From assembly GCA_902762655.1 (NCBI GenBank), contig CACWOZ010000005.1:53408-117407 (forward strand): DNA of 64,000 bases, written 5' to 3'. Positions 1,567 to 43,440 of the stretch are shown one piece after another (position 1 is the first letter of the stretch; each line of letters starts with the position of its first letter). The translations under genes and the position numbers were made by a program. The stretch is from an uncultured Bacteroidia bacterium. Lineage in GTDB: Bacteria; Bacteroidota; Bacteroidia; Bacteroidales; UBA932. Below the pieces are notes generated by a model. That model searched no databases. It saw only the letters and a program-made list of their open reading frames with translations, and had not been told where the DNA came from.

Positions 1567-1582
1567 AGTTAAGTGTACTAAT

Positions 1583-1621
1583 AATCCCGTGCGTAATAAC
1601 ATTGGTTTCACGCACGGGATT
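1583..1621 (-). terminator. Hairpin terminator after secDF
   Basis: A perfect 12-bp inverted repeat (AATCCCGTGCGT at 1583-1594 and its complement at 1610-1621) with a 15-nt loop begins about 20 nt past the secDF stop. The T-tract on the minus strand is weak, so termination may be partial. Confidence 0.65.
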
Positions 1622-1641
1622 TAATGATTGATAGTGATAGA

Positions 1642-25046: not shown

Positions 25047-25146
25047 GTGTCATTATTTGTTGGTATTTTGCCTGATGGCAGGTGCAAAACAGGGATTATT
25101 TCTCCTATATTTACAATCCGTTTTGCACATTAATAGTAGTGTAACT

Positions 25147-27939
25147 ATGGTTTCAAGGGTCTTCAGATATCTGATCGCAGGGCTTATTATGCTCGCTCCG
25201 GTACTAGCTTTCGGACAGGTTTCTTCCATTAGGGGGAACGTGACTGACCAGGAAGGCAGGCCTGTGGATTTTGCAACCGTTGTCATCCAGCCTTCCGGGC
25301 AGTACGCCGTTACAGACGCTCAGGGGAACTTCAATATAAGAAGTGTGCCTTCGGGAAAGACAAGGCTGCAAATATCTTTCTACGGAATGGAAACCATCGA
25401 CACAACTGTGGTCGTGGCGCCGTCGAGAATGGCTGAATTCTATTTCCGCATGACGGAAACCTCTTTTTCCCTTGAAAATGTGACGGTGGTGGCCAAACGG
25501 AATGAATCGGGGCACAGCACGGCCTCAGAGATTTCCCGTCAGGCGATGGACCACATGCAGACCAGTTCTCTGGGCGATATCATGGCGCTGCTACCCGGCG
25601 TGCAGATAAGCAATCCCACCCTCGATGAGGCCCAGTCGATATCTGTCCGAAACAAGGCCGGTACGAATATGGCCAGCCTCGGAACCGCGGTGCTGGTGGA
25701 CGGAGCACCACTCTCCAACAATGCGAACATGCAGTTCCTCTCCACTGCCATCTCCGGCAACTCCAAGAACGAAGCGACATCGGGCTATGCCTCTACCGGA
25801 ATAGATGTGCGCGGGCTGTCGACCGACAATGTCGAATCCGTGGAGGTCATCCGCGGCATCCCTTCGGTCGAGTATGGCGACATGACATCCGGCGCTGTCC
25901 TTGTCAAGTCGAAGGCCGGCCGCTCTCCGCTGACACTGCGCTTCAAGACGAATCCCAATATCTACCAGGCCAGCGCCGCCAAGGGATTCAAACTGTCCGG
26001 CAAGGCAGGAGACCTTAACGTCAGCGGTGATTATGCATACAACCGCAAGGACCTGATCCGCGATTTCGACAGTTACCGCAGGGCCAATGCCAAGTTCCTG
26101 TGGTCGGTGATGCTCGATGGAAGCGGACGCTCCACGGCCAATACTTCCATCACCTTGACTTACGCTCGCGACCGCGCGAAGATGAATCCCGATGCGTTCG
26201 GGCGCGACCAGAGCTGGGGCAACACCTATGGCGTAGCCTTCAACCACAACGGGCATGCGTTCGTCAACAAGGGTTTGCTTAAAAACATCAACTGGCTGAT
26301 TTCCGGAAGCTACAACAACAAGGTCTCCCACATCGAATCTACCGCTACCAATGCCCTGAATCTGTATTCGACAGCCATGGAGGACGGCGTTATCTATACC
26401 AATACCCCGGGACAGCATGTTTTCGATATCAACGGCAATGAAATCACCAATGCGGCCGACCGTATGCTGAAGGGCGTAGTGCTGCCTTACAACTACTTCT
26501 ATACCTACGACATATATGGCAAGGAGGTTGGGGTGTTCGCAAAGCTGAACGCAGATTTCTCCAGGACCTGGGGTGATGTTACCGACAAGTTGCTGGTGGG
26601 AACCGATTTCAAGACAGACGGCAACCTTGGCAAGGGGGCTGTTTATGACGATGATTTTCCCCCATACAGGAATGTCGATAACGCATCGTCGGGATACCGC
26701 AGGAGGCCATTCTATGATATCCCCTTCATCAACCAGTTCGGTCTCTATGCCGAAGACAATCTGCTTTGGCGTATAGGAGAGAGGGAACTGAATGTTACCG
26801 CCGGAGTCCGTTACGACCTGGTCAACAGCCTGACGTCGCTTGCTCCCCGTATCAATGCCAGCTTCGACATTTTCCCTTGGATGACGGTCCGCGGGGGCTG
26901 GGGCATCGCTTCAAAGGCCCCCACCTCCATGTATATGTATCCTAACTATGCCTACCTCGACAATATCCTGTATAACGGCATGAGCGAGACCCTGCCTGCC
27001 GAAGAACGGCTGCTGGTGGCCAAGACCAGCGTGTTCAGCAGCGAGAACCCCGACCTGCAGATAGCCCGCAACCGCAAGGCGGAGATAGGACTGGACTTTA
27101 CGATAGCAAAGCGCATCAACGTGTCGGTCACGGCCTTCGACGAGCTGATGAAAAACGGCTACAGGCTTGGTCTGGACATCCCTTCGTTCATTTGGTACCG
27201 CCTTGCTCCGTATGTGGTTGCCAGCGAAAATCCCGGTTCTCAGCCTACTCTCAAGCAGGGAACCGAATACGGGCTCTTCTTCAATGTCTATAAGCCGTAC
27301 AACAATGTAAAGGCTTCGAACAGGGGCGTGGAGTATGAAATAGATTTCGGCCGTTTCGATGCCATCAGGACTTCCTTCTATCTTAATGGCGCCTGGAGTT
27401 ACAGCACAAGCACCAACCCCTCCTACTCCTTCCAGACACGTACAAACGGGAACAACCCCGAACATCACATAGGAATTTACAACCCCGAGCGGCAGCTGTC
27501 CCACGACGAAGACCTCGTAAGCACCCTGCGCATCACGCACAATATACCTAAGATCGGTTTCGTGGTCACGCTGACCGCCCAGGCCGACTGGTTCTGCCAC
27601 GAATGGAGTACTTTCAACAATCCGGACATGTTCGTTAAGTACATATCTTACAAGGATGGCCAGGTCTATGATTTCGATCCCGCCATGAAGAACGATCCCG
27701 AGTTCGGATATCTTTTCGTCACCCCCGACCCGACCCGCGATGTGGTGGAAAAGACCACTTCGTACTTCCTCTTCAATCTCAACCTTACAAAAGAGATAGG
27801 CGATGCCATGACAGCGTCGTTCTACGTGAACAATATTTTCAACTTCCGTCCTTCCGACCGTTATGAAACCTCGGGAGCCTTCCGAGAACTTGGAATCCCC
27901 ATGTTCTTCGGATTTGAACTGAAAGTCAATATCAAATAA
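25147..27939 (+). CDS. TonB-dependent receptor, operon A
   Basis: A 930-residue outer-membrane receptor. I chose ATG 25147, which opens a signal peptide (MVSRVFRYLIAGLIMLAPVL). A carboxypeptidase-regulatory-like domain follows (about 25-105, SIRGNVTDQEGRPVDFATVV). The plug starts near residue 130 (SSLGDIMALLPGVQI) and includes VESVEVIRGIPSVEYGDMTSGAV, the equivalent of the usual TonB plug motif. The rest is a 22-strand barrel ending YNNIFNF-like and aromatic (FFGFELKVNIK). It is closely paralogous to the receptor at 37913. No SusD partner is present; a DUF4876-like lipoprotein takes that position instead. The substrate is unknown, and context suggests haem, metal or peptide. Confidence 0.93.
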   Translation: MVSRVFRYLIAGLIMLAPVLAFGQVSSIRGNVTDQEGRPVDFATVVIQPSGQYAVTDAQGNFNIRSVPSGKTRLQISFYGMETIDTTVVVAPSRMAEFYFRMTETSFSLENVTVVAKRNESGHSTASEISRQAMDHMQTSSLGDIMALLPGVQISNPTLDEAQSISVRNKAGTNMASLGTAVLVDGAPLSNNANMQFLSTAISGNSKNEATSGYASTGIDVRGLSTDNVESVEVIRGIPSVEYGDMTSGAVLVKSKAGRSPLTLRFKTNPNIYQASAAKGFKLSGKAGDLNVSGDYAYNRKDLIRDFDSYRRANAKFLWSVMLDGSGRSTANTSITLTYARDRAKMNPDAFGRDQSWGNTYGVAFNHNGHAFVNKGLLKNINWLISGSYNNKVSHIESTATNALNLYSTAMEDGVIYTNTPGQHVFDINGNEITNAADRMLKGVVLPYNYFYTYDIYGKEVGVFAKLNADFSRTWGDVTDKLLVGTDFKTDGNLGKGAVYDDDFPPYRNVDNASSGYRRRPFYDIPFINQFGLYAEDNLLWRIGERELNVTAGVRYDLVNSLTSLAPRINASFDIFPWMTVRGGWGIASKAPTSMYMYPNYAYLDNILYNGMSETLPAEERLLVAKTSVFSSENPDLQIARNRKAEIGLDFTIAKRINVSVTAFDELMKNGYRLGLDIPSFIWYRLAPYVVASENPGSQPTLKQGTEYGLFFNVYKPYNNVKASNRGVEYEIDFGRFDAIRTSFYLNGAWSYSTSTNPSYSFQTRTNGNNPEHHIGIYNPERQLSHDEDLVSTLRITHNIPKIGFVVTLTAQADWFCHEWSTFNNPDMFVKYISYKDGQVYDFDPAMKNDPEFGYLFVTPDPTRDVVEKTTSYFLFNLNLTKEIGDAMTASFYVNNIFNFRPSDRYETSGAFRELGIPMFFGFELKVNIK

Positions 27940-27947
27940 ATAGTGTT

Positions 27948-29189
27948 ATGAAAAAGTTTGTTTTGATTCTCGCAGCTGCAGTTGCTGCCCTTACCATTTC
28001 TTCCTGCAAGAAGGACAATGGTACCAAAACCGTCACCGTCACCGTATCGGTCGATGAATCCGCTGTTGAGGCTGGTATTACCAAGCCCGATTCCTATGTT
28101 ATCACTGTTACCAACAATTCCACCACTACGGCTGTAACAGCCAATACCGAGAACGGCAAAGCTGAATTCCCCGGCCTTGTTCCCGGCATTTACAGCGTCG
28201 CTGCAAATGCAGTTGTAGTAACGGATGGCCGCCAGTACGTTTTCACCGGTACAGAAGCTTCTGTCGATGCGACAGTCGACGCAGCAGTTACCGTCAAGGT
28301 TTCTGCAGCCAAGGAGTCCGCACTCGTTTTCAAGGAAATCTATTACACCGGATGCAAGATCGGCGAAGGTGAATATGATACCTATTTCCGCGATCAGTTC
28401 TGGGAGGTTTACAACAACTCCTCCGAGACTGTCTATGCCGACGGCCTCTGCATCACCTGCCTTGGCAACAACTATGCAAGCTGGGACTGGAGCACCATTT
28501 ATGAGTACGATATCCCCAACCCCGAGAAGTATGTATTCGTAAAGACCGTATGGCAGATTCCCGGAACCGGCAACCAGTATCCCATCAAGCCCGGCGAGTC
28601 TATCGTAATCGCCCAGTGGGGAACCGACCACACCGCTGCCACCCTTGGCACAAGCAACTCCATCAACCTCTCCGGAGCCGACTTTGAAGCTATCCTTGGT
28701 GAGTCCACTCTCTGGAACGGAACTGTCATTACCGACAACAAGGCAATCAACATGGACCGCGTAATCGAGTCCGGATATGCCATGCCTCAGTGGCTTGTTT
28801 CCGTAGGTGATGATGCCATCGTACTCTTCAAGCCCAGCCAGGCTCTTGTGAACGAGAACTTTATCGCCAGCACCAATGGCGGATACACCGATGCCCGCGA
28901 AATACTCCGTTCCGATATCCTCGACGCGGTCCAGTGGCGTACAAATGAGGAAGACGGCCTTAAGGAAGGCGGACTGTTCCTCCCTTCGGATATCGATGCA
29001 GGCTTCAAGTTCCTCGGCAGTTCCTACACAGGCGAGAGTTTCTCCCGCAAGGTTGCTTACACCCGCGAGGATGGAACCGTCGTTTACCAGGATACCAACA
29101 ATTCTACCAACGACTTCGAGAAGAACACAAAACCTCAGATCCGTCGCAACGGAGCAGGTGTAGCTTCTTGGAACACTTGGGCTAAGTAA
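27948..29189 (+). CDS. DUF4876-like lipoprotein, operon A
   Basis: A 413-residue lipoprotein (signal ending TISSC, Cys20). Residues 25-120 form an Ig-like or transthyretin-like sandwich (TVTVTVSVDESAVEAGITKP). The remainder is a lamin-tail-like domain beginning ALVFKEIYYTGCKIGEGEYD, with YDTYFRDQFWEVYNNSSETV and NQYPIKPGESIVIAQWGTDH. This matches the DUF4876 layout as I recall it. It starts 8 nt after the receptor gene and is probably its surface partner. The paralogue is at 40813. The biochemical role is not known. Confidence 0.8.
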   Translation: MKKFVLILAAAVAALTISSCKKDNGTKTVTVTVSVDESAVEAGITKPDSYVITVTNNSTTTAVTANTENGKAEFPGLVPGIYSVAANAVVVTDGRQYVFTGTEASVDATVDAAVTVKVSAAKESALVFKEIYYTGCKIGEGEYDTYFRDQFWEVYNNSSETVYADGLCITCLGNNYASWDWSTIYEYDIPNPEKYVFVKTVWQIPGTGNQYPIKPGESIVIAQWGTDHTAATLGTSNSINLSGADFEAILGESTLWNGTVITDNKAINMDRVIESGYAMPQWLVSVGDDAIVLFKPSQALVNENFIASTNGGYTDAREILRSDILDAVQWRTNEEDGLKEGGLFLPSDIDAGFKFLGSSYTGESFSRKVAYTREDGTVVYQDTNNSTNDFEKNTKPQIRRNGAGVASWNTWAK

Positions 29190-29195
29190 TTGGAT

Positions 29196-30722
29196 ATGAA
29201 TAAGATTGTTCCTATCGTCATAGCTCTGTGCCTGGGTGGCTCGTCCGCCCTGGCACAGGGTGCTTATACTCCCGTCGCGCTCAGGCTTATGGAAGAAAGG
29301 TCGCTTTGGACTTCTTCCGACAATGCAGCCGCCTTTTATTTCAACCCGCTGCCACACTTTGGCTCGGTAGGCTTGTCTGCATCAAGGCTGGACGGCGAAT
29401 ATCGCCAAGCCCAGCAGGCCACAGCTTCTACCGTGGTCGCTGCAAGCGCTGCGGGAGACGCGACGGTGGGAAGAATCAATCTGATCGGAGATTTCGCATT
29501 CAGGAATATCTTCGACAGCGGTTGCAAATACAACACCAATCTTTATGAGGTGGCAGACGACATGCCTTACTACATCCTTGACAGCAACCCCAGCAGGTGG
29601 ATACGTCAGGAATATGAAATGCAGGTCAAGGCATCTGCGCCTCTCTCGGAGAATCTTGCTGCAGGCATGATTGTGCATTACACCGACAAGGTGGGCGCCA
29701 AGCAGAAAGACCCTCGCAGTGAGACCTATGTGATGGACATCGACCTCCGCCCTTCGCTTGCGTTGAAGCTTGGAGGAAAGCACGTAATAGGCCTCTCCGG
29801 CTTTTTTATTTACGATTACGAAAGGGCTTATCCCTCCAACAACAACTTCAGGATAGACCAGAAGACGGCCTGTACTCTCGGGCTCGGCGAGGTAAACAAT
29901 TCTTATGTGGGCGGTAATAATGGCCTTAAGGAATACTATTACAACAAATACCTCTATGGCGGAGCCATCCAATATGCGTTCGAGGGCGACCTGACGGTAC
30001 GTACCCAGATAAGAGCCTTAACGGGTTCCACCGAGGTGCAGCATAAGAAATCCCTTCCCGAAAGCAAGGGCCGCACCCAGACCATGCGTCTCGATGCATC
30101 CGCTCTTGTCCTGTGGGGAGAGAAACATAGCAACAGGCTGGACATCTGTGGTTTATATCGCTATACCGATGGCATCGAGAAAGTGCAGCAGCTCGACAAG
30201 ACAGCGTTCAACCAGAAATGGGTGACAATTGCCGAGAACACGATGAGTTCCTACAACCGCGTTGAAGCTGCTGCCGGGTATGATCATCTTTTCGGTCTTG
30301 ACGGACTGTCGTACGACTGGAGCGTGGGAGGCAAGGCTCTCTTCTCGATGGAGGATGATGCCTATTTCATTCCATCTTCAAGTTATAACTGGACGCGGCT
30401 GGGGGCGGAAGCCTACGGTGCGCACAATTTCAAATTAAAGGCTGGTTCCCTTTTCGTCCGTGCCGGAGCAGGTTACGGAAAGAGCCTTGGCGGGGAATAT
30501 GTGTACGGCGGCTCCAAAACCGATTCCCAGGCCATAAACCTGTATAAGGAAGATATAGAGTTTTACACTTCGGACTGCGCAGAGGCTGAATTGTCCGTAG
30601 TATGGAGCCTGATGCATCGCAAGGCCTGGTTCAACCTTGGTCTGGATGCTGCTTGCAAGAAATCTTTGACATCGGACCGGGTCCGCATGGTAGCAGGCCT
30701 TTCGTTCGATGTATTTTTCTGA
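29196..30722 (+). CDS. DUF6850-like outer-membrane beta-barrel protein, operon A
   Basis: A 508-residue exported protein. ATG 29196 is preferred to the in-frame TTG at 29190. A signal peptide (about 1-21, ending SALAQG) is followed by alternating hydrophobic beta-strands with aromatic girdles, ending VRMVAGLSFDVFF with a terminal Phe as in outer-membrane barrels. ALRLMEERSLWTSSDNAAAF near the start is conserved with the paralogue's opening region. I assign it to the DUF6850 group with moderate confidence. It sits third in the operon, 6 nt after the DUF4876-like gene, so the trio probably forms one envelope complex. Confidence 0.75.
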   Translation: MNKIVPIVIALCLGGSSALAQGAYTPVALRLMEERSLWTSSDNAAAFYFNPLPHFGSVGLSASRLDGEYRQAQQATASTVVAASAAGDATVGRINLIGDFAFRNIFDSGCKYNTNLYEVADDMPYYILDSNPSRWIRQEYEMQVKASAPLSENLAAGMIVHYTDKVGAKQKDPRSETYVMDIDLRPSLALKLGGKHVIGLSGFFIYDYERAYPSNNNFRIDQKTACTLGLGEVNNSYVGGNNGLKEYYYNKYLYGGAIQYAFEGDLTVRTQIRALTGSTEVQHKKSLPESKGRTQTMRLDASALVLWGEKHSNRLDICGLYRYTDGIEKVQQLDKTAFNQKWVTIAENTMSSYNRVEAAAGYDHLFGLDGLSYDWSVGGKALFSMEDDAYFIPSSSYNWTRLGAEAYGAHNFKLKAGSLFVRAGAGYGKSLGGEYVYGGSKTDSQAINLYKEDIEFYTSDCAEAELSVVWSLMHRKAWFNLGLDAACKKSLTSDRVRMVAGLSFDVFF

Positions 30723-30727
30723 TATAT

Positions 30728-32764
30728 ATGAAGAGAATTACGATACTGTTGAGTCTGATGCTCTCAAGCGTGGTGGTGCACGCTCAAGGATTTGCCATAC
30801 TGGCTGATATGGATTCATACGATCATTGCAGGCCTCAACTCGAGGCCTACGCTGCATCTGTGAGAGCCGATGGTTTCGATGCATTCGTTGCAGCTGGCAA
30901 ATGGGAAACGCCCGAGGAAGTGCGCGATTCCCTGCGTCGCTGGCATGAAACCCGCGCCTTGGAAGGATGCGTGTTCGTAGGTGAAATCCCCGTGCCAATG
31001 ATTCGCAAGGCTCAACACCTTACATCCGCTTTCAAGATGGATGAGCTTAGTTTCCCCATGCGGGATTCATCGGTGCCATCCGACCGTTTCTACGACGACT
31101 TCGACCTTGTTTTCCGCCCGGTCGGCCGCGACAGCGTGGAAACCCGCTTTTTCTATTATGAACTCGCCCCGGAGTCTCCGCAGGAAATAACCTGCGACAT
31201 ATTCTCAGGACGCATCCATCCTTCGGACAAATTTCAGGACCGCTATACCGAACTGTCCAAGTATCTTACGAAGCTGGTCCGCCTCCGCAGCGAGAACAAC
31301 GAGCTCGACAGGGTGATGTCCTACACTGGAGAGGGTTCCTTCTCCGACAGCATGATCGCATGGAAAGACGAGACGGTTACCCTGCAGGAGCAGGTGCCTG
31401 GTGCCTTCAGCAGTATAGACGGGGCAAAGTTCTATGTGTTCTATCAGTTCCCTTACATAAAGGATGTTGTGCTGAAGGAATGCCGGCGCGACGACCTTGA
31501 CCTCGTGCTCTTCCACTGCCACGGCACCCCGGAACGCCAGTGGATTCAGAGTGCGCCTCCGGCAACTTACGACGACGAGTATTATGCTGCAGCAAAACTT
31601 CAGGCCCGGCAGGCCGTGCGGCGTAAGGTCCGTCTCGGATCCGCTCCCGAAAAAGCAATGGCAGAAGTTATGCAACGCTACGGGCTTGACACGACATGGG
31701 TGACCGACAGTTTCGACCCCGATGTGATGTGTGCTGATTCACTCGAGGACATCCGTCTCGGAATCGTCCTGGAAGACGTATGGGCCGCCAAACCCAACGC
31801 CCGCATGTATATTTTCGATGCATGCTACAACGGGGATTTCCGCGAAGAGGACAACATCGCGTCGCGCTATATCTTTTCTGACGGCAATGCTGTGGTAGGC
31901 CTTGGAAATACCGTCAATGTGCTGCAGGACAAGGCATCCAGCACTTATCTCGGTCTTCTTACACAGGGCTTAACGGTTGGAGAATGGCATCGTCGCACCG
32001 CTATTCTGGAATCGCACGTCATTGGAGACCCAGCCTTCCATTTCACCCCCACACAACTGACGGTTAAGGACCGTTACATCACTCCTGGGGACGACCTTCT
32101 GGATATCGTGAAGAACGGGGAAGGATTTATGGAACGCCTGAACGCACTCACACTTCTGAAGCACTATGATATAGATCGTTATCGTGAAGGGCTTCGCGCC
32201 GCTCTGGAAGATCCTTACGAGTATACCCGCCGCAAGGCTGCTTACTACCTCTGCCGCGTTGGCAATCCCGACGACATCCCTGCCATTCTCAAGGCATATT
32301 TCGAGGATATCAACGCCAAGCGCATCGCCTTCAATATTACCAATAACTCCGCATGCTTCCCGGACAGCACCTTCCTGAAGGCCTTCGACGCTGCCGACAA
32401 GTCTTTCATCCATTCTGGCATGGACGACGGCAGGAAGGCTTTGGTGAGCGCCGTGGGGCTCAAGGACTATGCGGCAGAAGCTATCTCCCGTCATGGCAGC
32501 GACAAGCGGGCGCGCGCATCCATGCTGCACATCCTGCGCAACAACCCCTATCCCGAACTTGCGCCGGAACTGGTGAAACTCGTCAAGGACGAGACCGAGC
32601 CCCTGAACATTCGTGTGGTGGTAGCCGAAGCCCTCGGCTGGTACACTGTAGCATACAACCGGGCATGGATTGTGAAGCAGCTCCGCGATTATCATCCCGC
32701 CGAGCCCGAACTGCAGGATGAAGTAACCCGTACAGTAGGACGCTTAAATGTTTATCTGCGATGA
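30728..32764 (+). CDS. Caspase-fold (C25/gingipain-like) protease with HEAT repeats, first copy
   Basis: A 678-residue exported protein; ATG 30728 opens the signal peptide MKRITILLSLMLSSVVVHAQ. Residues 20-140 resemble the gingipain N-subdomain (ALEGCVFVGEIPVPMIRKAQ; SSVPSDRFYDDFDL). The clan CD dyad is visible as His265 in LVLFHCHGTPE and Cys366 in IFDACYNGDF, followed by SDGNAVVGLGNTVNVLQDKA. From about 450 on, helical repeats (YTRRKAAYYLCRVGNPDDIP; LNIRVVVAEALGWYTV) look like HEAT repeats. No C25-type Por secretion domain is seen. It probably acts in the periplasm or on the surface. Stop and next start overlap as ATGA. Confidence 0.78.
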   Translation: MKRITILLSLMLSSVVVHAQGFAILADMDSYDHCRPQLEAYAASVRADGFDAFVAAGKWETPEEVRDSLRRWHETRALEGCVFVGEIPVPMIRKAQHLTSAFKMDELSFPMRDSSVPSDRFYDDFDLVFRPVGRDSVETRFFYYELAPESPQEITCDIFSGRIHPSDKFQDRYTELSKYLTKLVRLRSENNELDRVMSYTGEGSFSDSMIAWKDETVTLQEQVPGAFSSIDGAKFYVFYQFPYIKDVVLKECRRDDLDLVLFHCHGTPERQWIQSAPPATYDDEYYAAAKLQARQAVRRKVRLGSAPEKAMAEVMQRYGLDTTWVTDSFDPDVMCADSLEDIRLGIVLEDVWAAKPNARMYIFDACYNGDFREEDNIASRYIFSDGNAVVGLGNTVNVLQDKASSTYLGLLTQGLTVGEWHRRTAILESHVIGDPAFHFTPTQLTVKDRYITPGDDLLDIVKNGEGFMERLNALTLLKHYDIDRYREGLRAALEDPYEYTRRKAAYYLCRVGNPDDIPAILKAYFEDINAKRIAFNITNNSACFPDSTFLKAFDAADKSFIHSGMDDGRKALVSAVGLKDYAAEAISRHGSDKRARASMLHILRNNPYPELAPELVKLVKDETEPLNIRVVVAEALGWYTVAYNRAWIVKQLRDYHPAEPELQDEVTRTVGRLNVYLR

Positions 32765-34854
32765 AAAAGATTCTGACAATCATAGTTCTAGCCGCGATTT
32801 GCGCGGCAGCACAGGCAAAGAATGTCTTCGGCATCTTCATCGACAGCCGCACACACGGAGCATGCCGCGCAGAAGTGGAGGCTTATCGCGATGTCCTTCG
32901 CTCGGAGGGCCTGGATGCACGCATCTTTTCTGACGGATGGCAGACTCCGGAGCAGGTGCGTGAGCGTATCCGTAGCCTTGCCGCCGACAGCCGCCATCCC
33001 CTCGAAGGGGTTGTATTCATAGGAGATATCCCCATAGCCATGATACGCGAGGCCCAGTGGCTCACTACGGCATTCAAGATGAATGAACAGCGTTTCCCGA
33101 TATTCGAGTCAAGTGTGGCTTCCGATCGTTACTACGACGATTTCGACCTGGATTTCGAGCTCATCAGCCGCGATCCGGACCATAAGGGAGTATCCTACTA
33201 TCGTCTCACCGAAAAGGGGGATGTGCGCATCTCCTGCGATATATACTCCGGACGCATCAAGGTGCCTCAGTGCATGATCGATGCCGGCATGGATGCAGAC
33301 GAACTGATGCGCGGGTATCTGCGCAAGGTAGTGGCAGCACACAGAGAGAACAATCCGTTGGACAAGTTCGCCTTTTTCTATGGCAGCGGATATAATTCCG
33401 AAGACATGAATATCTGGCGCCAGCGTCCTGTCCAGTACAAGGAGTATTTCCCTTACGCCTTCCGCAAGGCTTCCGGCAACCGCTTCCTGAATTTCCACCA
33501 GGAGAAGGAGATGAAGTGGAATCTTTTCACCGAACTCCAGCGCGACGATGTCGACCTTTTCCAGTTCACCGAGCATGGCGCCCCCGAAACCCAGTACATC
33601 AGTCCGAGTGGCGAGGCCCGTACCATTGACGAGAACCTCTATAATCTCAAGCGTGTCACCGCCAGGCAGTATCTGCGCTGGAAAGGCACCAAAGAAGATG
33701 AGAAGTTCCAGCGCGCAGCCCTGGATTCTGTTTTCCACCTGTCCCGCGAGATTGTCAGCGAGTCTTCCCTGGCTGCTTTTGCCAAGGACGATTCGCTCAT
33801 CCAGCGCAATGCCAATATCTATCAGGATGAACTGGCCTCCGTGCGCAGCAATCCCCGCGTAGTTATCTTGAACGCTTGTTTCAACGGCTCTTTCCATAAT
33901 CCTGAAGGCTATATTGCGGGAGTCCACATCTTCGGCCCCGGAAAATGCGTCGCGGTTCAGGCTAATACGGTGAACACCCTGCAGGACAAGTGGGAAGACA
34001 AGCTTCTGGGATATCTCTCCGAGGGCCTCAGGATAGGCTTCTGGCAGCAGGAATTCACCTTCCTCGAGAGCCACATCATAGGAGATCCTACCTTCCGTTT
34101 CAGCCCTCACGACAAGGCGGAAGCCAAGCGTGCAGCAAGGCTGGAAAAGGACCTTGTCAGCCGCCGGCACGACACGAGGACCTGGGAGAAATATCTCAAG
34201 TCGGAATATCCTAACGACAGGGCGGCAGCTATACTGCATCTGGCCGATTCCCGAAAGGCCCTTGACCTTCTTAAGGAAGACCCGTCCTGGGTTGTCCGCA
34301 TCAGCGCTTTCGACGTGCTCCGCGAAAATGCCGGTCCCGATTCCGAAGAGGCTATCCTCACAGCCGTGAACGATCCTTTTGAGCTTGTGGTCCGTCAGGC
34401 CTGCCGCTTTGCATCCGCCCGTGGCGATGCCGGCAAGGACAGTTGTCTGGTGCGCGCCATGGAGAAACTGATTGAATACAATCAGGATCTTGCCCGTGTA
34501 AACTGGGATGCCGACGATGCCCTCACGATTATGCGCGGGCATGAGCATCTGGACGAAGAACTGGCTAAGGCTGCAGATCCTGCCCTTCCTGGTATGCAGC
34601 GTATCTATGCCATGCGAAGCTTCCGCAACTACCGCTATCTCAAAGCTGTGCCTGTATTGCTTGCCAATGCCGGAGACAGTGCTCTGGATGCCAATGTACG
34701 ACAAGTGGCCCTGGAGACGCTCGGATGGTTTGACAGTGCACCTGTACGCGGGCATATCGTCGCCGTGCTGAAGCAGATGATCGAGAATGAACCGAATATG
34801 CCGGAGATATTGAAAAGCGAGAACATCAAGACTCAGAAAAGGCTGTCTGAATGA
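32761..34854 (+). CDS. Caspase-fold (C25/gingipain-like) protease with HEAT repeats, second copy
   Basis: A 697-residue paralogue of the preceding protein with the same order: signal peptide (about 1-19), N-subdomain (LEGVVFIGDIPIAMIREAQW; SSVASDRYYDDFDL), His272 in FTEHGAPETQY, Cys373 in ILNACFNGSFHN, then VQANTVNTLQDKWEDK. The His-Cys distance is 101 residues in both copies, which argues that both dyads are real. HEAT-like repeats fill the C-terminal 200 residues (DPFELVVRQACRFASARGD; LDANVRQVALETLGWFD), and the end is a charged tail. Tandem divergent copies suggest different cleavage preferences. The C-terminal solenoid may bind substrate or a partner. Confidence 0.78.
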   Translation: MKKILTIIVLAAICAAAQAKNVFGIFIDSRTHGACRAEVEAYRDVLRSEGLDARIFSDGWQTPEQVRERIRSLAADSRHPLEGVVFIGDIPIAMIREAQWLTTAFKMNEQRFPIFESSVASDRYYDDFDLDFELISRDPDHKGVSYYRLTEKGDVRISCDIYSGRIKVPQCMIDAGMDADELMRGYLRKVVAAHRENNPLDKFAFFYGSGYNSEDMNIWRQRPVQYKEYFPYAFRKASGNRFLNFHQEKEMKWNLFTELQRDDVDLFQFTEHGAPETQYISPSGEARTIDENLYNLKRVTARQYLRWKGTKEDEKFQRAALDSVFHLSREIVSESSLAAFAKDDSLIQRNANIYQDELASVRSNPRVVILNACFNGSFHNPEGYIAGVHIFGPGKCVAVQANTVNTLQDKWEDKLLGYLSEGLRIGFWQQEFTFLESHIIGDPTFRFSPHDKAEAKRAARLEKDLVSRRHDTRTWEKYLKSEYPNDRAAAILHLADSRKALDLLKEDPSWVVRISAFDVLRENAGPDSEEAILTAVNDPFELVVRQACRFASARGDAGKDSCLVRAMEKLIEYNQDLARVNWDADDALTIMRGHEHLDEELAKAADPALPGMQRIYAMRSFRNYRYLKAVPVLLANAGDSALDANVRQVALETLGWFDSAPVRGHIVAVLKQMIENEPNMPEILKSENIKTQKRLSE

Positions 34855-36323
34855 AGAAACTGTTAATTGTCTGCACTGTTCTCATGCCGCTCGCGTTGCA
34901 TGCCCAGGTGCCTGTAATCAAGAAGGCGCCTATGGCAGTGACGTCCGAACTGCCATCCAGTGTCGACAACACTCTCAATAAATACTTTCCTCCGCTGATC
35001 GACCAGAAGGGCGGTTCCTGCGCCCAGGCATCGGCGATAGGATATATGTACACCTACGAGATGAACCGTCTGCTCGACAGGGACGCATCCGCTTCTGCCG
35101 CAAACAGGTTCTCGTATCAGTACACATACAATTTCGTGAACGAAGGCCATGACAACGGCTCTTTCGGTTGGGATGGCCTGGGGCTTGCCACGGCCAACGG
35201 AGTCATTACGGAAGAAGACTGGCCGGCGTCTGGAGCCACTTCCTTCAAATGGGCAACGGGCTACGAGAAATATCTTACTGCCATCCATTACAGGGCGAAA
35301 TCATTCGAGATGATACCCTTGGAAAAGTGGGATGACCTGGCTGCCATCAAGCAGTTCCTTTTCAACCGTGGCGTTGAAGGAAGTGCAGGAGGCGTAGTCG
35401 TTTTTTCTACCTATGCAGGCGACTGGGGCATGGATAAATCTTACGCCGGGCCCTCAGAGACCGGATACAAGTGTATCCAGACAAAACTTGGAACGGATGG
35501 GGGACATGCCCTTACCATTGCCGGCTATGACGATCTCGTGGAGTTCACCACTCCGTCTGGAGAAGTTACCAGGGGCGCATTCATTGTGGTGAACACCTGG
35601 GGGGCCTATGCGCACGACAACGGTCGTTTCTACCTGCCTTACTGGTTTTTCTTCAACTATACAAAGGAAACCAAGATGTCGGACTATGTGACCAGTGTCG
35701 AGCCGTATTATCAAGAACCGAAAATCGTCTTCAAGGTGGGCGTGGAATGTGACTCCCGCGACGACCTTTCCTTCCAGCTCGGAGTGTCGGACAATCCTTC
35801 CGATAAGGTGCCCAGGCATAAGATGCAGGTAAGGATCGCGGACCATCAGGGGGGTGACCATCCCATGCAGGGGGCCTGGTGGCCGAACGACATAGAGTTC
35901 GGTTTCGACTTCAGCAGCGTCGCCCATCTGGTGGACGAAATTGAGAATCCCAACTATTTCCTGATAGTGGCCCGCTACGCCAGGGGCAACAAGGAGGCAA
36001 GCGTGGCCAGACTTACCGGTTTCTCAGTATACGATTATCGCGAGAGCATGACCAATCCAAAAGTGTTCGAGTACGATGGGGGCGGAGATCTGGAAAAGGG
36101 CCTCAATTATTACAGCATCTACACCGTGCCACCTGTAAAAACCTCATACAGCCCGGTTGAATGGATATCTGCGCAGACTTCCCAGCCTGTGTCGGCGCCG
36201 CTGGTTGTGCGAACGGCAAGCGGCAAATATGCAAAAGTACGGTTTAGCGAGTATGACCGCAGCGCTGGCACCATCAGAATCAAATACGTATATAATCCGG
36301 AAGGAAGGAGGAACCTGAAATGA
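34851..36323 (+). CDS. Papain-like (C1) cysteine protease
   Basis: A 490-residue exported protein overlapping the previous stop as ATGA. After the signal peptide (about 1-19) the C1 catalytic set is clear: PPLIDQKGGSCAQASAIGYM with Gln52 and Cys57, DGGHALTIAGYDD with His219, and IVVNTWG with Asn248. There is no long propeptide, since Cys57 is only about 38 residues after the signal site. The C-terminal half (about 285-490) is beta-rich and of unknown family. It probably degrades proteins in the periplasm or outside the cell and feeds products to the operon's receptor. Confidence 0.85.
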   Translation: MKKLLIVCTVLMPLALHAQVPVIKKAPMAVTSELPSSVDNTLNKYFPPLIDQKGGSCAQASAIGYMYTYEMNRLLDRDASASAANRFSYQYTYNFVNEGHDNGSFGWDGLGLATANGVITEEDWPASGATSFKWATGYEKYLTAIHYRAKSFEMIPLEKWDDLAAIKQFLFNRGVEGSAGGVVVFSTYAGDWGMDKSYAGPSETGYKCIQTKLGTDGGHALTIAGYDDLVEFTTPSGEVTRGAFIVVNTWGAYAHDNGRFYLPYWFFFNYTKETKMSDYVTSVEPYYQEPKIVFKVGVECDSRDDLSFQLGVSDNPSDKVPRHKMQVRIADHQGGDHPMQGAWWPNDIEFGFDFSSVAHLVDEIENPNYFLIVARYARGNKEASVARLTGFSVYDYRESMTNPKVFEYDGGGDLEKGLNYYSIYTVPPVKTSYSPVEWISAQTSQPVSAPLVVRTASGKYAKVRFSEYDRSAGTIRIKYVYNPEGRRNLK

Positions 36324-36697
36324 AGAAGATAATGCTGATACTCTCTCTTGTCCTGAGTCTTGCGGCCTGCAAGAACAGGGGCGGAGAATCGAAAGTCCCC
36401 AATCTGAAGGATGAGATAACCATCAGCGGGTTGTCCGATGACAGATGGACATATTTCTCCTTCGAGTCCGGAGATGTTGTTGGGCAAAGCAGCTTTGCAA
36501 ATGAGGAGGAAGATGCTCTCTGGGCAGAAAGGAAGGACTGGGACCTTGCCATTTGCGGGGAGCATATCAAAACCAACGGAGGAACTTCCGGCAATGGTGC
36601 CGGCGGCATCCAGCGCGACAAAGAAAATACTTTCCAGTCTTTGGAAGAAGCCCCGCTGGAGGGCTATCTTACAGATACGCTGTTTGTGGTGAAATAG
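36320..36697 (+). CDS. Short HmuY-like lipoprotein, probably C-terminally truncated
   Basis: A 125-residue lipoprotein (signal ending SLAAC, Cys17). WTYFSFESGDVVG, then RKDWDLAICGEHIKTNGGTS and GNGAGGIQ match the first conserved blocks of HmuY-type haem-binding lipoproteins. HmuY proteins are about 200 residues; here a TAG follows FVVK where the family normally continues with more strands. The stop lies 26 nt before the right pheS-tail repeat, so the gene may have lost its 3' half at the insertion junction. It overlaps the C1 protease stop by 4 nt. Haem binding is unproven, and the truncated form may be inactive. Confidence 0.65.
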   Translation: MKKIMLILSLVLSLAACKNRGGESKVPNLKDEITISGLSDDRWTYFSFESGDVVGQSSFANEEEDALWAERKDWDLAICGEHIKTNGGTSGNGAGGIQRDKENTFQSLEEAPLEGYLTDTLFVVK

Positions 36698-36857: not shown

Positions 36858-37904
36858 ATGAAAAAAATTTTATTCTTGGCAGCCGTTGTATCAGTTGTGT
36901 TGGCCGGCTGCGCAAAAGATCCCGAAGCAAAAGTCGCCGCAGACAGAGAGACCATCGAGGTTTCATATGCGGGTGAAGTCGTTACAGTAAAGCTTGAAGC
37001 TAATTATGCATGGACTGCCGCCGTTGCAGGTGACGTGAAGGTTGTCGTAGATCCCGCCCAGGGAACGGGCAATGCAGAAGTAACCCTGAAGATCGAAGAG
37101 AATCTTGGTAACAGCGCACTTGAAGGCACCGTGACGTTCTCGGCAACCGGAGGCGGCACCACAGCTTCCACCGTAATCGCTATCAAGCAGGGCGTACTCA
37201 CCGAAGTTGACTATGGCGGATATAAATATAAAGTCAAGATGCTTGCCGACGGCAACTTCTGGTTTGTAGAGAATCTCCGCTTTGTTCCCCAGGGGAAAGA
37301 GGTTAGCGATGATCTTTCAAACCTTGATAACGGAATCTGGTATCCCGTAGACCACGCTAAGAAGGCCCTCACCGACAATGCCGACACCATAAAAGTCAAG
37401 GGATATCTCTACAGTGCAGAAGCTGCTCTCGGGCTTGCTCCACATACCGTTAATGATGATAACTTCACAACCTATAGTGGAGCGAAGGGCCTTTGCCCCG
37501 ATGGATGGCATATCCCCACTCTTGACGAACTTGCAAATCTTGTCGGCCGTGTTGCACAGTCGAAGTACGACCTCAAGCAGACTCCTGGCCCTGTCGCCAG
37601 CGCTCCTTATTGGGATGCTACCGCTGGCGTGGCCCTCATTTCCAAGGCCAATGCCGATGGTTTCAACATTGACAACAAGGTTGGATATATCAATGCAAAT
37701 GCGACTGCCACCCAAGGAACCGTCCTTAATGTGATGAATTACATTCTTTCGTCGACAGCTGTCCCCAAGTCGACAGATGCAGGTGTATTCAACAATCAGT
37801 TCTATGGAATATTGGTTGCCTCGACGAGCGGCGGTTCCTGCAACGGAGCCTGCTTCAACTATCGTGGCGGCGCATCCGTGCGTTGCATAAAGGACCACAA
37901 GTAA
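36858..37904 (+). CDS. BACON and FISUMP domain lipoprotein
   Basis: A 348-residue lipoprotein (signal ending VVLAGC, Cys18). Residues 25-115 resemble a BACON domain (ANYAWTAAVAGDVKVVVDPA; GNAEVTLKI). From about 120 the pattern GYKYKVKMLADGNFWFVENL, AKGLCPDGWHIPTLDELANL and the end SVRCIKDHK is the FISUMP (Fibrobacter succinogenes major paralogous) domain. Such proteins are surface-exposed and of unknown role, sometimes thought to bind carbohydrate or mucin. It heads operon B, with the GTG of the next gene 8 nt after its stop. Confidence 0.85.
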   Translation: MKKILFLAAVVSVVLAGCAKDPEAKVAADRETIEVSYAGEVVTVKLEANYAWTAAVAGDVKVVVDPAQGTGNAEVTLKIEENLGNSALEGTVTFSATGGGTTASTVIAIKQGVLTEVDYGGYKYKVKMLADGNFWFVENLRFVPQGKEVSDDLSNLDNGIWYPVDHAKKALTDNADTIKVKGYLYSAEAALGLAPHTVNDDNFTTYSGAKGLCPDGWHIPTLDELANLVGRVAQSKYDLKQTPGPVASAPYWDATAGVALISKANADGFNIDNKVGYINANATATQGTVLNVMNYILSSTAVPKSTDAGVFNNQFYGILVASTSGGSCNGACFNYRGGASVRCIKDHK

Positions 37905-37912
37905 CACGCCCG

Positions 37913-40816
37913 GTGAGATGCTATAGCCTTTCCTTTGTCATATGCCTGCTACTCACTGCCTTTGAAGCCGCAGGCAGTGTAGTTTGTGCCGCCCCTGCCC
38001 GCAGATGCACCATTTCGGGCCGGGTGACAGACGCTCTCAGCGGAGAGCCGATGTATATGGCATATGTCATGGCAAAGGAGGCCGGCCTCTGGGCCGTGAC
38101 CGATGCGGAGGGCCGCTTTTCCTTGAAAGACATCCCTGTCGGGCAGAATACCATCGTGGTCAGTTTCCTTGGATTCGAAGACTGGCAGAAAATAATAAAT
38201 CTTACCGGAGATATTTCTGACTTTATCATCAGGCTCAATGCCTTAAGCCTTTCGCTTGAAGAGGTTGTGGTTACAGCAAGAGAGGGCGGTGAAATATCCT
38301 CATCCTCCAAAATATCATCCCAGACGCTGGAGCATATTCAGCCCTCCAGCCTCAAGGACGTGATGCAGCTTCTCCCGGGCGGCATCACTGCGAACCCTTC
38401 GCTCACAATCACCAATCAGCTGTCCATCAGAGATATAGGTACTACTTCTGCGAATGTTGCAGGCACAGCTCTTATCCTTGACGGTGCTTCGGTGAGCAAT
38501 GACTCCAACATGCAGATGCTCTCTGGAGGCACAGCCATGAATAGTGATTCCAAGAACGTTGCAAGTACTGCCGGAGGAGGTGTGGATGCCAGGCAGGTGA
38601 CTACAGACAACATCGAATCTGTCGAGGTCATCCGCGGCATACCTTCCGTGGTTTACGGGAATCTTACCTCAGGTGCGGTGGTTGTAAAGACAAAGGCAGG
38701 GCCATCACCGTGGTCCGTCCGCCTGAAAAGCGACCCTCAGCTCAAGCAGGTGGCTGTCGGGAAGGGTTTCAAACTTACTGACGGCAAGGGTGTAATCAAT
38801 TTCGACACGGATTATGCAAACGCATACAGTGACGTCCGTACCCCATCTTACGCCTATCGCCGCTTCAATTTTCAGACAGGCTGGTCCAACACCTTCTGGA
38901 AAAGCTTCACCGTAAACACAAAGTTTCAAGCCTTCTTTTCCAACGCCAGCGACCGATCCGATCCGGATCTCGTGCTGGATGAACTTAAAGAGTCGCGCGA
39001 CATGGGACTGCGCGTGAATATTAACGGCCGCTGGAGCCTTAATAAGCCTTGGATTACGGATATAGAGTATCTGCTTGCCGGCAGTGCTGCCAGTCAGCGT
39101 TCCCGCGAACGCAAGTATCAGGGTTCTGCAGGATACTCTCCCTCCACTACATCCATGGACAGCGGGGAGTCCGTGGGCTTTTTCACCGAACCACAATACT
39201 ATTCCGATGTGTCTGTAAACGGCATCCCACTGGATGCACAGGCAAAATTGACAGCCAGACTGTTCGGCAAATACGGTCGCATTTCAAACAAGTTGCTATC
39301 CGGAGCAGAGTGGATGATCCAAGGGAACAAAGGCCCTGGAAAGATATTTGATGCCAGGCGGCCACCTTCTCCCGGTTCCGCCTCTGCTTTCCGTGAGCGT
39401 AGTTTTGCAGACATCCCCATGCTGAACCGTTTCACGGCTTATGCAGAAGATGATTTCTCCCTCCCTATCGGTCCCACCGTCCTGGAGCTAAGGGCAGGAT
39501 TGAGAGCTAACGCGATTATCGCAGATGGCGTCTCCTCCGGTCAATTCAATTGTTTGGAACCGCGCGTGAATGTCAAGTATCACCTGATAAAGAAGAATAC
39601 TGGATTCCGTGCACTCAGCGTCAGGGCGGGTCGCGGGATTTCCTGCAAGATGCCCTCAATGATATATCTCTACCCAGAACCTGCCTGGAAAGATCAAGTT
39701 TCATTCGTTTACAACGACTTCGATGCAAACAACTACGGACTTGCGGTTGTTACCACACGCAAGGTGGATACTGTTAATCCCGGACTCCAACTCCAGAAAT
39801 CCCTCAACACCGAACTGGCCTTAGAGTTCGACCAGGGCAAAGTCAGCGGCTCTTTGGTCTGGTATGACGAGAGGATGAGCGGAGGATACGGTTTCGTTAC
39901 GGAGTTCATGCCGATGGAATACCGGCGCTACAACTTCACATGGGTGAACAATGTTCCGTCACAGGCAGTCCTCCCTTCCGGGCAGGTCCCGGTATATGCC
40001 GACGGAGTGGTGAGCAATGCCGGCACCCCTCTGCCCTTCATTACAGACACCACTTTCCTCGCACGTTCCGTGCCATCCAACAGCATCTCCAACCATAAAA
40101 AAGGACTGGAGTTCACCCTGGAGTTCCCGGCCATCAAAACTATCAACACATCCATAAGCGTCAGTGGCGCATGGCAACGGATGGAACTGCACAATGATGA
40201 CCTCACCGGGCGGCTCTATGGAGGCCTGGAGAACGGACGCAGTTATCCATGGGTCGGCATTTATGCTGGTTCTGCCAGTGCTTCCAACGCAAGCATACGT
40301 GAGCGTTTCAACACAAACCTGCGCTTTGTGACCCATATTCCGCGTATAGCCATGGTTTTTACCCTCACTGCTCAAATGGTCTTCCACGAAAGCACAACTT
40401 ACCTGTGCGAATATGACGGATTAAGTCTCCCTTACTATTATAACGAGACAGGCAATCGTGTTTCCGGTCCAGATGTGTTGAAGGATACAGAACACACCAA
40501 ATATATCGCACCCCTCTTCATCATGGGCAGGGATGGCAGGGTGGTGCGTTTCTCCCAGATTATGGAGCAGGACCCTATCTATAGGAATCTAATTCTCAGC
40601 ACAAACACTGCCACCTACTACCTTACGCAGGGATATCCCTTCTATTCCATGTTTAATCTTCGCCTGACAAAGGAGATGAAGGGCGCCACCATATCCTTCT
40701 ACGCAAACAACTTCTTGAATATGAAGGGGCGCGTCCGCAATACTGTAACAGGATATCCCTCAGATAAAAACACTCCGCTATATTTCGGTGCCGAGATCAA
40801 ATTGACCATAAGATGA
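37913..40816 (+). CDS. TonB-dependent receptor, operon B
   Basis: A 967-residue outer-membrane receptor with no suitable ATG. GTG 37913 gives the best signal peptide (MRCYSLSFVICLLLTAFEAA), and an upstream TTG at 37883 is less likely because it overlaps the previous gene. A carboxypeptidase-like domain (CTISGRVTDALSGEPMYMAY) precedes the plug (SSLKDVMQLLPGGITANPSL; IESVEVIRGIPSVVYGNLTS) and a barrel ending YFGAEIKLTIR. The plug is very similar to that of the operon A receptor, whereas the barrels differ more, which suggests related machinery with different ligands. It is followed by the DUF4876/DUF6850 pair with overlapping ends. Confidence 0.9.
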   Translation: MRCYSLSFVICLLLTAFEAAGSVVCAAPARRCTISGRVTDALSGEPMYMAYVMAKEAGLWAVTDAEGRFSLKDIPVGQNTIVVSFLGFEDWQKIINLTGDISDFIIRLNALSLSLEEVVVTAREGGEISSSSKISSQTLEHIQPSSLKDVMQLLPGGITANPSLTITNQLSIRDIGTTSANVAGTALILDGASVSNDSNMQMLSGGTAMNSDSKNVASTAGGGVDARQVTTDNIESVEVIRGIPSVVYGNLTSGAVVVKTKAGPSPWSVRLKSDPQLKQVAVGKGFKLTDGKGVINFDTDYANAYSDVRTPSYAYRRFNFQTGWSNTFWKSFTVNTKFQAFFSNASDRSDPDLVLDELKESRDMGLRVNINGRWSLNKPWITDIEYLLAGSAASQRSRERKYQGSAGYSPSTTSMDSGESVGFFTEPQYYSDVSVNGIPLDAQAKLTARLFGKYGRISNKLLSGAEWMIQGNKGPGKIFDARRPPSPGSASAFRERSFADIPMLNRFTAYAEDDFSLPIGPTVLELRAGLRANAIIADGVSSGQFNCLEPRVNVKYHLIKKNTGFRALSVRAGRGISCKMPSMIYLYPEPAWKDQVSFVYNDFDANNYGLAVVTTRKVDTVNPGLQLQKSLNTELALEFDQGKVSGSLVWYDERMSGGYGFVTEFMPMEYRRYNFTWVNNVPSQAVLPSGQVPVYADGVVSNAGTPLPFITDTTFLARSVPSNSISNHKKGLEFTLEFPAIKTINTSISVSGAWQRMELHNDDLTGRLYGGLENGRSYPWVGIYAGSASASNASIRERFNTNLRFVTHIPRIAMVFTLTAQMVFHESTTYLCEYDGLSLPYYYNETGNRVSGPDVLKDTEHTKYIAPLFIMGRDGRVVRFSQIMEQDPIYRNLILSTNTATYYLTQGYPFYSMFNLRLTKEMKGATISFYANNFLNMKGRVRNTVTGYPSDKNTPLYFGAEIKLTIR

Positions 40817-43429: not shown

Positions 43430-43440
43430 AAGATAAAACT

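Follow-up and report, generated by a model that had tools for sequence, protein, structure and literature searches.

A HmuY-type fold divided between a papain-like protease and a lipoprotein in a candidate protease-coupled import operon of Bacteroidales

In the window studied here (the whole stretch of 64,000 nucleotides), a HmuY-type fold is divided between two proteins: its C-terminal half forms the tail of a papain-like protease, and its N-terminal half is a small lipoprotein encoded immediately downstream. Both genes belong to a run of seven on one strand (+), 25057(25147)-36697, identified from open reading frames and Pfam matches. We lean slightly towards reading this operon as a Fus-like import machine of the kind induced by iron limitation, equipped with its own cysteine proteases, the papain-like one being moored by complementation of the HmuY halves. 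The division of HmuY between protease tail and lipoprotein was missed by the first-pass annotation; the core of DUF4876, HEAT-repeat and receptor genes is already listed in print as an iron-induced locus. The features are as follows.

25147..27939, + strand: TonB-dependent receptor with a carboxypeptidase-regulatory-like N-terminal domain and a plug (Pfam)
27948..29189, + strand: DUF4876 lipoprotein (PF16215, 4.3e-32)
29190..30722, + strand: DUF6850 family protein (PF21012, 2.8e-74)
30728..32764, + strand: C25-like (His/Cys dyad) protease a, with C-terminal HEAT repeats; His265, Cys366
32761..34854, + strand: C25-like protease b, with C-terminal HEAT repeats; 36% identical to a
34851..36323, + strand: papain-like (C1) protease with a signal peptide (by eye), Cys57/His219/Asn248 and a C-terminal HmuY half
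36135..36320, + strand: HmuY C-terminal half, the tail of the papain-like protease (about residues 429-490; full-length HmuY HMM and hhalign)
36320..36697, + strand: HmuY N-terminal half, a 125-aa lipoprotein with lipobox Cys17 and a second Cys79 (HMM E 2.3e-26)
36858..47467, + strand: neighbouring operon with the same core, encoding a Fib_succ_major/BACON protein, a TonB receptor, DUF4876, DUF6850, a NapH-type ferredoxin and an S46 peptidase

The first-pass annotation had proposed an operon of a receptor, DUF4876 and DUF6850 proteins, two proteases, a papain-like protease and a HmuY-like protein, and all seven were present on the same strand with backing from Pfam. The receptor, whose frame can also be read from a TTG at 25057, matched the Pfam plug (6.7e-13) and barrel (1.5e-20); against NCBIfam it gave partial TonB-family matches only, far under the cut-offs. 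A lipobox-like motif was found in 83 of the 91 DUF4876 family members examined, and the DUF6850 protein is presumably an outer-membrane beta-barrel. By coordinates, each of the last three junctions of the operon is a 4-bp overlap.

The core of the operon is not unique to the source genome. Among 237 genomes of the order, 38 carried DUF4876 and 9 carried C25-HEAT genes; in each of these nine, one or more copies lay no farther than about 5 kb from DUF4876 (G142 carries an additional one at the edge of a different contig), and co-presence of the two genes alone had a hypergeometric P of 2.9e-8. The linkage between proteases and an outer-membrane receptor that the earlier annotation claimed is therefore real. 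From at least 549 C25 relatives, 80 C25 loci were kept, 63 of them with receptor, DUF4876 and DUF6850 labels. The papain/HmuY part was present in few (15 of 80 on the match strand, plus L094), and of 99 family genomes 3 gave a full C1-HmuY match. The earlier annotation called the operon possibly mobile; the distribution is patchy, but no transposase or integrase was found among the 10 neighbouring ORFs scanned, and mobility was rejected. Several relatives carry rumen labels.

The neighbouring operon repeats the core, the proteins of the two operons being 31%, 30%, and 23% (over 136 aa) identical. Its NapH-type ferredoxin carries an HMA-like stretch and its S46 dipeptidyl peptidase is Dpp7-like. 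The peptidases recurring beside the core are C25, C1, S46 and M16, the last found in the same-genus relative G008, within its counterpart of the second operon, and in neither window operon. At L048, which was scanned, ABC transporter, DUF4857 and PepSY-TM genes stand beside the core in place of proteases; proteolysis is thus not essential to the core. Gene sizes at other core loci are like those of L048. As alternative cargo, the NapH-type ferredoxin/HMA protein and PepSY-TM would fit metal handling.

The two C25-like proteins had been described as caspase-fold proteases. Their His/Cys dyad is indeed conserved, in 201 of 201 aligned ORFs (some being duplicate records), and HEAT_2 was recognized in both window proteins (4.5e-10 and 6.3e-11, Pfam). 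The fold itself was less well supported. Pfam C25 (PF01364) matched 2 of 16 family members (1.2e-4 and 0.0037), both under the curated cut-off; neither window protease was matched, and no match was found in the source genome. An AF2 model of the C25-like protein (pLDDT 84.9) displayed alternating strands and helices, and Foldseek retrieved mainly HEAT-type proteins, with no gingipain among the top 50. Profile-profile comparison was dropped as a route to C25 membership, hhalign giving 0.8% against 19 C25 domains from the order. The C25 assignment is therefore a weak one, drawn from the dyad, the motifs and the two weak Pfam matches.

The papain-like protein had no Pfam match at 0.01. Its Cys57/His219/Asn248 triad was kept in 16 of 16 full-length rows (L078 was left out), and the papain-like fold was observed by AF2 and Foldseek on the L080 homologue rather than on the window protein. 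Triad and fold, the latter by way of this homologue, place it among the C1 peptidases.

The HmuY halves were recognized with an HMM built from 19 full-length HmuY proteins. The tail of the window protease matched it with an E of 5.9e-8 (residues 452-490) and aligned with full-length HmuY in hhalign (prob 98.6); against 8b6a residues 166-213 the E was 0.055. The lipoprotein, whose gene shares its first 4 bp with the end of the protease gene, covers positions 1-117 of the 207 in the profile, reached 99.9% in hhalign against full-length HmuY and matched 3h8t residues 14-95. The label of HmuY-like lipoprotein was right as to family (1.6e-13), but the match spans profile positions 2-72 of 157 only. 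With half a domain, a complete haemophore is ruled out: no single polypeptide gave a whole-domain PF14064 match, and of the full-length profile the halves, on two proteins, jointly account for about 1-120 and 140-207.

The same division was found in the relatives. All 17 protease tails matched the C-terminal end of the HMM (whole-protein E 1.3e-10 to 6.6e-5), 16 of them at about positions 161-207 and L078, which has a frayed protease end, at 84-197. The 17 small lipoproteins all matched about positions 1-120 (E 1.7e-27 to 7.8e-19), and tblastn added an 18th split locus, L175. The halves were paired in 18 of 18 testable loci, neither being found alone, and no full-length HmuY was found among the 1534 ORFs called in 120 loci. 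L073, whose contig ends inside the protease, was left out of all split counts; L174 was rejected as an independent locus because it has an N-half identical to the one in L094, and a short HmuY in G149 was rejected as a further split, as it runs off the contig end. With script-chosen starts, the protease/N-half junctions were overlaps of 4, 35 or 41 bp or gaps of 2-86 bp (a longer start in L094 would give a 4-bp overlap). In L078 the pair precedes the C25 genes, and in L094 it is encoded on the other strand. That the split is an artefact of sequencing or annotation is ruled out by the 18 loci, the several junction types and the purifying selection described below.

In a tree with 22 full-length HmuY proteins, the N-halves formed one clade (UFBoot 99) nested within them, as common descent would have it. 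As judged from these sequences, the split arose once and has been kept over wide divergence. Where computable, dN/dS for the halves was 0.06-0.15, with several dS >1, and by this measure both halves are under purifying selection. Distances between N-half and protease were compared twice. With 16 loci (again without L078) and another trimming, the N-half correlated at 0.76 with the catalytic part and 0.88 with the tail. The second test used 14 of the 17 loci, which are related; L078 (partial protease) and L110 and L113 (near-identical to L148) were dropped. Here r was 0.87 with the tail and 0.60 with the remaining protease, and the N-half/tail partial correlation given the remaining protease was 0.80 (0 of 5000 permutations). 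Twenty-five control windows of the protease reached at most 0.63 (correlation) and 0.34 (partial), the best being the one nearest to the tail.

In the crystal structure of HmuY, beta1, beta6 and beta13-15 make up sheet I (PMC2671838); thus the cut distributes the strands of a single sheet over two chains. When L080 was modelled by AF2 as an artificial read-through single chain, both halves had a pLDDT of 89-96 (83 for the last 6 residues) and the linker 36-60; this output is a pLDDT and carries no readout of half pairing. HmuY was absent from the Foldseek top 50, which papain matches filled, so this comparison is no evidence for an assembled HmuY fold. Our best reading is that the two halves would assemble between two chains, mooring the soluble protease to the lipoprotein.

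The arrangement was thought to be undescribed, but PMC10434189 lists BT1933-39 of B. thetaiotaomicron (DUF4876, HEAT-repeat protein and TonB receptor; up 3.5-7.4x under iron limitation) and PG1019-22 of P. gingivalis (DUF4876 and receptor; up 20.8-214.5x, iron stimulon). A hemin table in PMC10470040 gives a DUF4876 gene a log2 change of -5.42, next to HmuY at -6.11. The iron control anticipated for such loci is thus on record for three DUF4876 loci, all measured in species other than the source. We found no functional study of BT1933-39 or PG1019-22 in the literature. B. xylanisolvens L143 comprises a receptor (two frames), DUF4876, DUF6850 and three C25-HEAT genes; neither papain-like protease nor HmuY half was found in the Bacteroides/Phocaeicola loci L139, L141-L143, L146, L151 and L152. 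B. thetaiotaomicron appears to carry a simpler form, so the question of the core can be tested there.

In the mechanism that we favor, the TonB receptor, the DUF4876 lipoprotein and the DUF6850 barrel would form an outer-membrane import machine served by dedicated cysteine proteases. Its ligand would be a protein or peptide that carries iron, possibly as haem; the receptor would bind and import this ligand, and the C25-HEAT and papain-like proteases would then cut it on the cell-envelope side, probably in the periplasm, yielding iron or iron-peptides in the manner of Fus (FusA receptor and FusC protease) with other proteases. Signal peptides and the missing T9SS point to this envelope-side location. 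The soluble papain-like protease would give, through its tail, the last strands of a HmuY-type beta-sandwich and the small lipoprotein the first, the halves folding together on the membrane and thereby tethering the protease. A more specific version falls just short of an even chance in our judgment: the haemophore fold, cut at its ligand-gripping thumb, would become whole only when protease and lipoprotein dock. This strand-complementation anchor would hold the protease at the entrance of a receptor that imports iron proteins, perhaps together with a ligand site at the cut, within a Fus-like cysteine-protease machine spread through gut Bacteroidales.

The halves might instead no longer meet, the tail being a relic or a protease-stabilizing appendage and the lipoprotein an independent binding protein. 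They are separate chains with separate signal peptides, and contact between them is a prediction; their strict pairing, their divergence linked beyond that of the remaining protease, their purifying selection and their single, long-retained origin nevertheless make this quite improbable. Haem piracy as in P. gingivalis, where surface proteases digest haemoproteins and a HmuY module binds the freed haem and passes it to the receptor, would account for the HmuY homology, the conserved protease residues and the response of DUF4876 loci to iron/hemin in other species; moreover G060, which has the split, also has SprA. In other HmuY members, Met can serve as a haem ligand. However, no His/Met column extended beyond 5 of the 17 N-halves, not counting the start Met, or beyond 4 of the 16 tails, and in the alignment HmuY-type ligation was lacking from the tail and the mature N-half, so that a haem reading through conserved axial ligands was abandoned for the split halves. 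P. gingivalis HmuY uses His134 (thumb strand beta8) and His166 (beta11) (PMC2671838), and the cut falls after the last N-half strand, at the thumb by our alignment. Furthermore, the window proteases had no T9SS domain, SprA, like Pfam C25, was not found in the source genome, and the receptor only weakly resembles haem receptors (TIGR01785, 21.7 bits against a cut-off of 316.85). Haem piracy is therefore unlikely.

We consider it equally unlikely that the system scavenges peptides or small proteins for nitrogen or carbon, or a peptide-like metallophore, with iron as one of several triggers. S46 (Dpp7-like), M16, C1 and C25 peptidases beside the same core would suit such a role, as would the rumen-labelled relatives, but the iron regulation reported in print for three DUF4876 loci and the presumed metal-handling cargo speak against it.

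In the split HmuY, one domain is shared between an enzyme and the protein that probably anchors it to the membrane, and this division has persisted in diverged lineages. Should the halves assemble, they would be a natural split-domain docking device in which a haemophore fold is reused as a scaffold. Gut and rumen Bacteroidales may thus have a new means of tethering a protease to an import machine. An iron-regulated system of many Bacteroidales, found in print only as expression-study entries, would also gain a testable mechanism.

Several known systems share parts of this arrangement. Lpg2622 and xylellain (PDB 6a0n/6a0q, 3ois) have the fold and catalytic residues of the papain-like protease, which adds an extra beta domain and the HmuY tail. 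The gingipains and other T9SS C25 peptidases share the His...Cys dyad and the weak Pfam C25 match of 2/16 members, whereas the window proteins end in HEAT repeats. With the absences noted above and a split HmuY devoid of conserved His/Met, the idea of a packed gingipain and HmuY set is not supported, and the haem analogy is weakened. P. gingivalis HmuY/HmuR (PMC2671838) has in common the HmuY beta-sandwich family, a lipoprotein and a TonB receptor; here, HmuY is cut in two with permuted gene order, one half is fused to a protease, and the receptor and partners differ. BT1933-39 and PG1019-22 share DUF4876 and the TonB receptor, and the BT locus also has the HEAT-repeat protein and further hypotheticals. 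Finally, Fus-type systems (FusA/FusC, YddB/PqqL) likewise link a TonB receptor genetically to an envelope protease, with iron-dependent expression (PMC6793856; PMC6071955), a linkage seen here in 9/9 genomes. The Fus protease is an M16, and the survey section of PMC6793856 is on Proteobacteria. In the window operons no M16 was found and the receptor was not recognized as FusA/YddB-type; they carry C25-like and C1 proteases, S46 in the next operon, and the additional DUF4876 and DUF6850 partners.

The seven genes that the first-pass annotation had listed for this operon were all found on the + strand of the window (C5:53408-117407), which comes from a 2.18-Mb assembly that is 96% complete. A second operon with the same receptor-DUF4876-DUF6850 core follows it.

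25147-36697 (+): seven genes head to tail, for a TonB receptor, DUF4876, DUF6850, two C25-like HEAT proteins, a papain-like protein and an HmuY-like lipoprotein
36135-36320 (+): end of the papain-like protease (tail)
36320-36697 (+): HmuY-like lipoprotein, 125 aa (N-half)
36858-47467: second receptor-DUF4876-DUF6850 operon, directly downstream in tandem; its further genes encode a membrane protein (NapH/MauN-type ferredoxin that includes an HMA-like stretch) and a Dpp7-like dipeptidyl peptidase of family S46

The last three gene junctions of the first operon each overlap by 4 bp. Identity between the two cores is 31% for the receptor, 30% for DUF4876 and 23% over 136 aa for DUF6850. Among the matches listed, the nearest named relatives of the first C25-like protein belong to uncultured Bacteroidales RUG257 (L073, 93% identity) and RUG345 (L074, 82%), RUG standing for rumen uncultured genome; MAGs from roe-deer rumen and elsewhere come next. 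Two C69 dipeptidases are encoded in the window, at 10243-11760 (+) and 21787-23490 (-); the latter lies upstream of the operon, and similar DNA adjoins the operon of G008, a genome of the same genus (blastn to its locus L071). Window positions 1-2000, adjoining secDF, have a G+C of 0.386, against about 0.50-0.59 in the rest.

The last gene had been annotated as an HmuY-like lipoprotein. It does match HmuY, but only the first half of PF14064 and not the whole domain. The HmuY domain is split between this N-half and the protease tail. A full-length HmuY HMM, built from 19 proteins of the order, matched nearly the whole N-half (E 2.3e-26) and residues 452-490 of the window protease (E 5.9e-8); in the proteases generally, the match covers about the last 35-45 residues. 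Both halves were matched in 17/17 loci tested, including L078, where the protease end is frayed and the tail match lies at other coordinates. The weakest whole-protein tail E-value was 6.6e-5 (L094), or 0.002 in a larger search, and an 18th locus, L175, showed both halves by tblastn (tail E 5.6e-5). Alignment to full-length HmuY with hhalign gave probabilities of 98.6% for the tail and 99.9% for the N-half. In the reverse test, a profile of 15 papain-like proteins matched ordinary HmuY proteins of G242, G275 and G265 (the window's family; 215-229 aa) through its tail columns only. No full-length HmuY was found by the HmuY HMM among 1534 ORFs called in 120 loci, a set holding 10 of the 16 N-halves of those loci, six having been removed by the overlap filter. 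Its other matches there at E 0.01 fell in the first 28-44, signal-peptide-like residues of DUF4876 and three other proteins. The type of protease/N-half junction differs between loci; in L078 the pair comes ahead of the C25 genes, and in L094 it is encoded on the opposite strand.

Across the order, HmuY was matched in 66 of 237 genomes, and stop-terminated short halves occurred in two of the 237, the window's and G060, both adjoining a papain-like gene. The end of the G060 gene matched the C-terminal portion of the HmuY profile. A short match in G149 was rejected as another split, being at a contig end. No description of a split HmuY was found, by title or passage, in the open-access papers searched, nor anything there on HmuY and circular permutation; papers there that bring up HmuY together with papain deal, by title, with peptide docking and drug design.

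In the tree, the N-halves group together in a single clade (UFBoot 99) nested within full-length HmuY, with HmuY proteins from the window's own family as neighbours. A full-length C1 protease with an HmuY tail was present in 3/99 genomes of that family, in one of seven of the genus (the window's own only) and in one of five of G060's family. For pairs where it was computable (many with dS >1, some saturated), dN/dS was 0.06-0.15 in the catalytic part, tail and N-half. The pair is patchily spread, of one origin and strongly conserved where present. Over 14 loci, pairwise divergence of N-half and tail was correlated (r 0.87; partial 0.80 after controlling for the remainder of the protease, with 0/5000 permutations as high). 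Against the N-half, none of 25 control windows from that remainder exceeded r 0.63 or partial 0.34, the best being the one nearest the tail. An earlier 16-locus run gave 0.88 for N-half and tail, 0.76 for N-half and catalytic part and 0.77 for tail and catalytic part.

Passages on the HmuY crystal structure (PMC2671838) describe one sandwich sheet of strands beta1, beta6 and beta13-15, with the haem ligands His134 and His166 in the thumb and fingers (beta7-12). The N-half aligns to 3h8t chain positions 14-95, probably residues 39-120, i.e. up to the thumb, and the tail to the last HmuY strands (8b6a 166-213, E 0.055). Thus, from these alignments, HmuY would be cut about at the thumb, and sheet completion would need both chains. 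When the L080 stop was read through to give an artificial single chain, AF2 predicted both halves with pLDDT 89-96 (last 6 residues 83) and the linker with 36-60. This supports assembled halves but is not decisive, because the output gives no contacts between them. No His/Met column was shared by more than 4/16 tails or 5/17 N-halves (start Met excluded), and no Cys column by more than 4/16 tails. The second Cys of the N-half (window Cys79, 36554-36556), possibly a ligand or disulphide site, is kept in 17/17 N-halves and is Gly in L175.

The C25-like proteins had been proposed as caspase-fold proteases. The His and Cys of their dyad were kept in 201/201 C25-HEAT ORFs of 600-830 aa, a count in which some ORFs come from one genome entered under two locus numbers; neither sequence comparison nor Foldseek established the caspase fold. 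In the papain-like protein, Cys57, His219 and Asn248 are conserved in 16/16 full-length rows, and the predicted model of its L080 homologue matched Lpg2622, xylellain and cathepsins.

Both protease types have signal-peptide-like starts by eye. Lipobox-like motifs were present in 6/163 C25-like, 1/11 papain-like and 83/91 DUF4876 proteins; 16/17 N-halves fit the lipobox pattern, and all 17 have its Cys. NCBIfam gave no T9SS domain on window proteins, SprA was not matched in the window's genome (nor in G008, G224 or G106), and the window's genome had no Pfam C25 match, against 53/60 order genomes with one. Therefore, export to the surface by the gingipain route seems shut off in this genome, and a periplasmic or lipoprotein-tethered location of the proteases is likelier. 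SprA was matched in G060, G025, G001 and G021; G060 carries the split, so this closure does not hold for every carrier.

Among the 237 genomes, DUF4876 was present in 38, DUF6850 in 44 (36 over cut-off) and the C25-HEAT family in nine. In all nine carriers, at least one C25-HEAT copy shares a contig with DUF4876 and lies no more than about 5 kb from it (hypergeometric P = 2.9e-8 for co-presence alone). A further copy in G142 sits at a contig edge, where proximity is unreadable. A scan of genomic contigs gave at least 549 stretches encoding C25-HEAT relatives. In the best 80 of these, the receptor was labelled in 67, DUF4876 in 65, DUF6850 in 73 and all three in 63; ten of the other 17 were short or began near the C25 genes, leaving L084, L086, L091, L130, L139, L145 and L146. 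The number of C25-HEAT frames per locus ranges from one to five, and some of them precede the receptor. Two are fused as a single frame of about 1230-1452 aa in L082:9893, L096:7787, L097:1 (cut by the contig start), L101:2433 and L134:358, which hints at neighbouring copies working in pairs.

Passages of PMC10434189 report that iron depletion raised PG1019-22 20.8-214.5-fold, BT3625-33 36.7-128-fold and BT1933-39 3.5-7.4-fold, the last comprising an IS256 transposase, hypotheticals, a HEAT-repeat protein, DUF4876 and a TonB receptor. The B. xylanisolvens locus L143 holds a receptor, DUF4876, DUF6850 and three C25-HEAT genes, which would fit the six genes BT1934-39; B. thetaiotaomicron itself is outside the locus set. 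In a table of PMC10470040, a DUF4876 gene (log2 change -5.42) stands beside HmuY (-6.11), negative values being taken as lower expression with more hemin. In other genomes the core carries alternative cargo. In L048:6756-10821 this is an ABC ATPase/transporter, DUF4857 and PepSY-TM, a set resembling the strongly iron-responsive BT3625-33 genes.

No paper on DUF6850 was found among the open-access papers searched. The operon may be read as an import-and-proteolysis system like Fus; its function, substrate and protein location are inferred, whereas the HmuY split was itself observed. Protease-associated import systems built around M16 proteases are described in passages of Grinter et al. (PMC6793856). 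In G008, the core stands with M16, ferredoxin and S46 genes, i.e. the second-operon set plus an M16 peptidase that recalls FusC. The window operon would share its logic with Fus-type systems, whereas the protein families differ.
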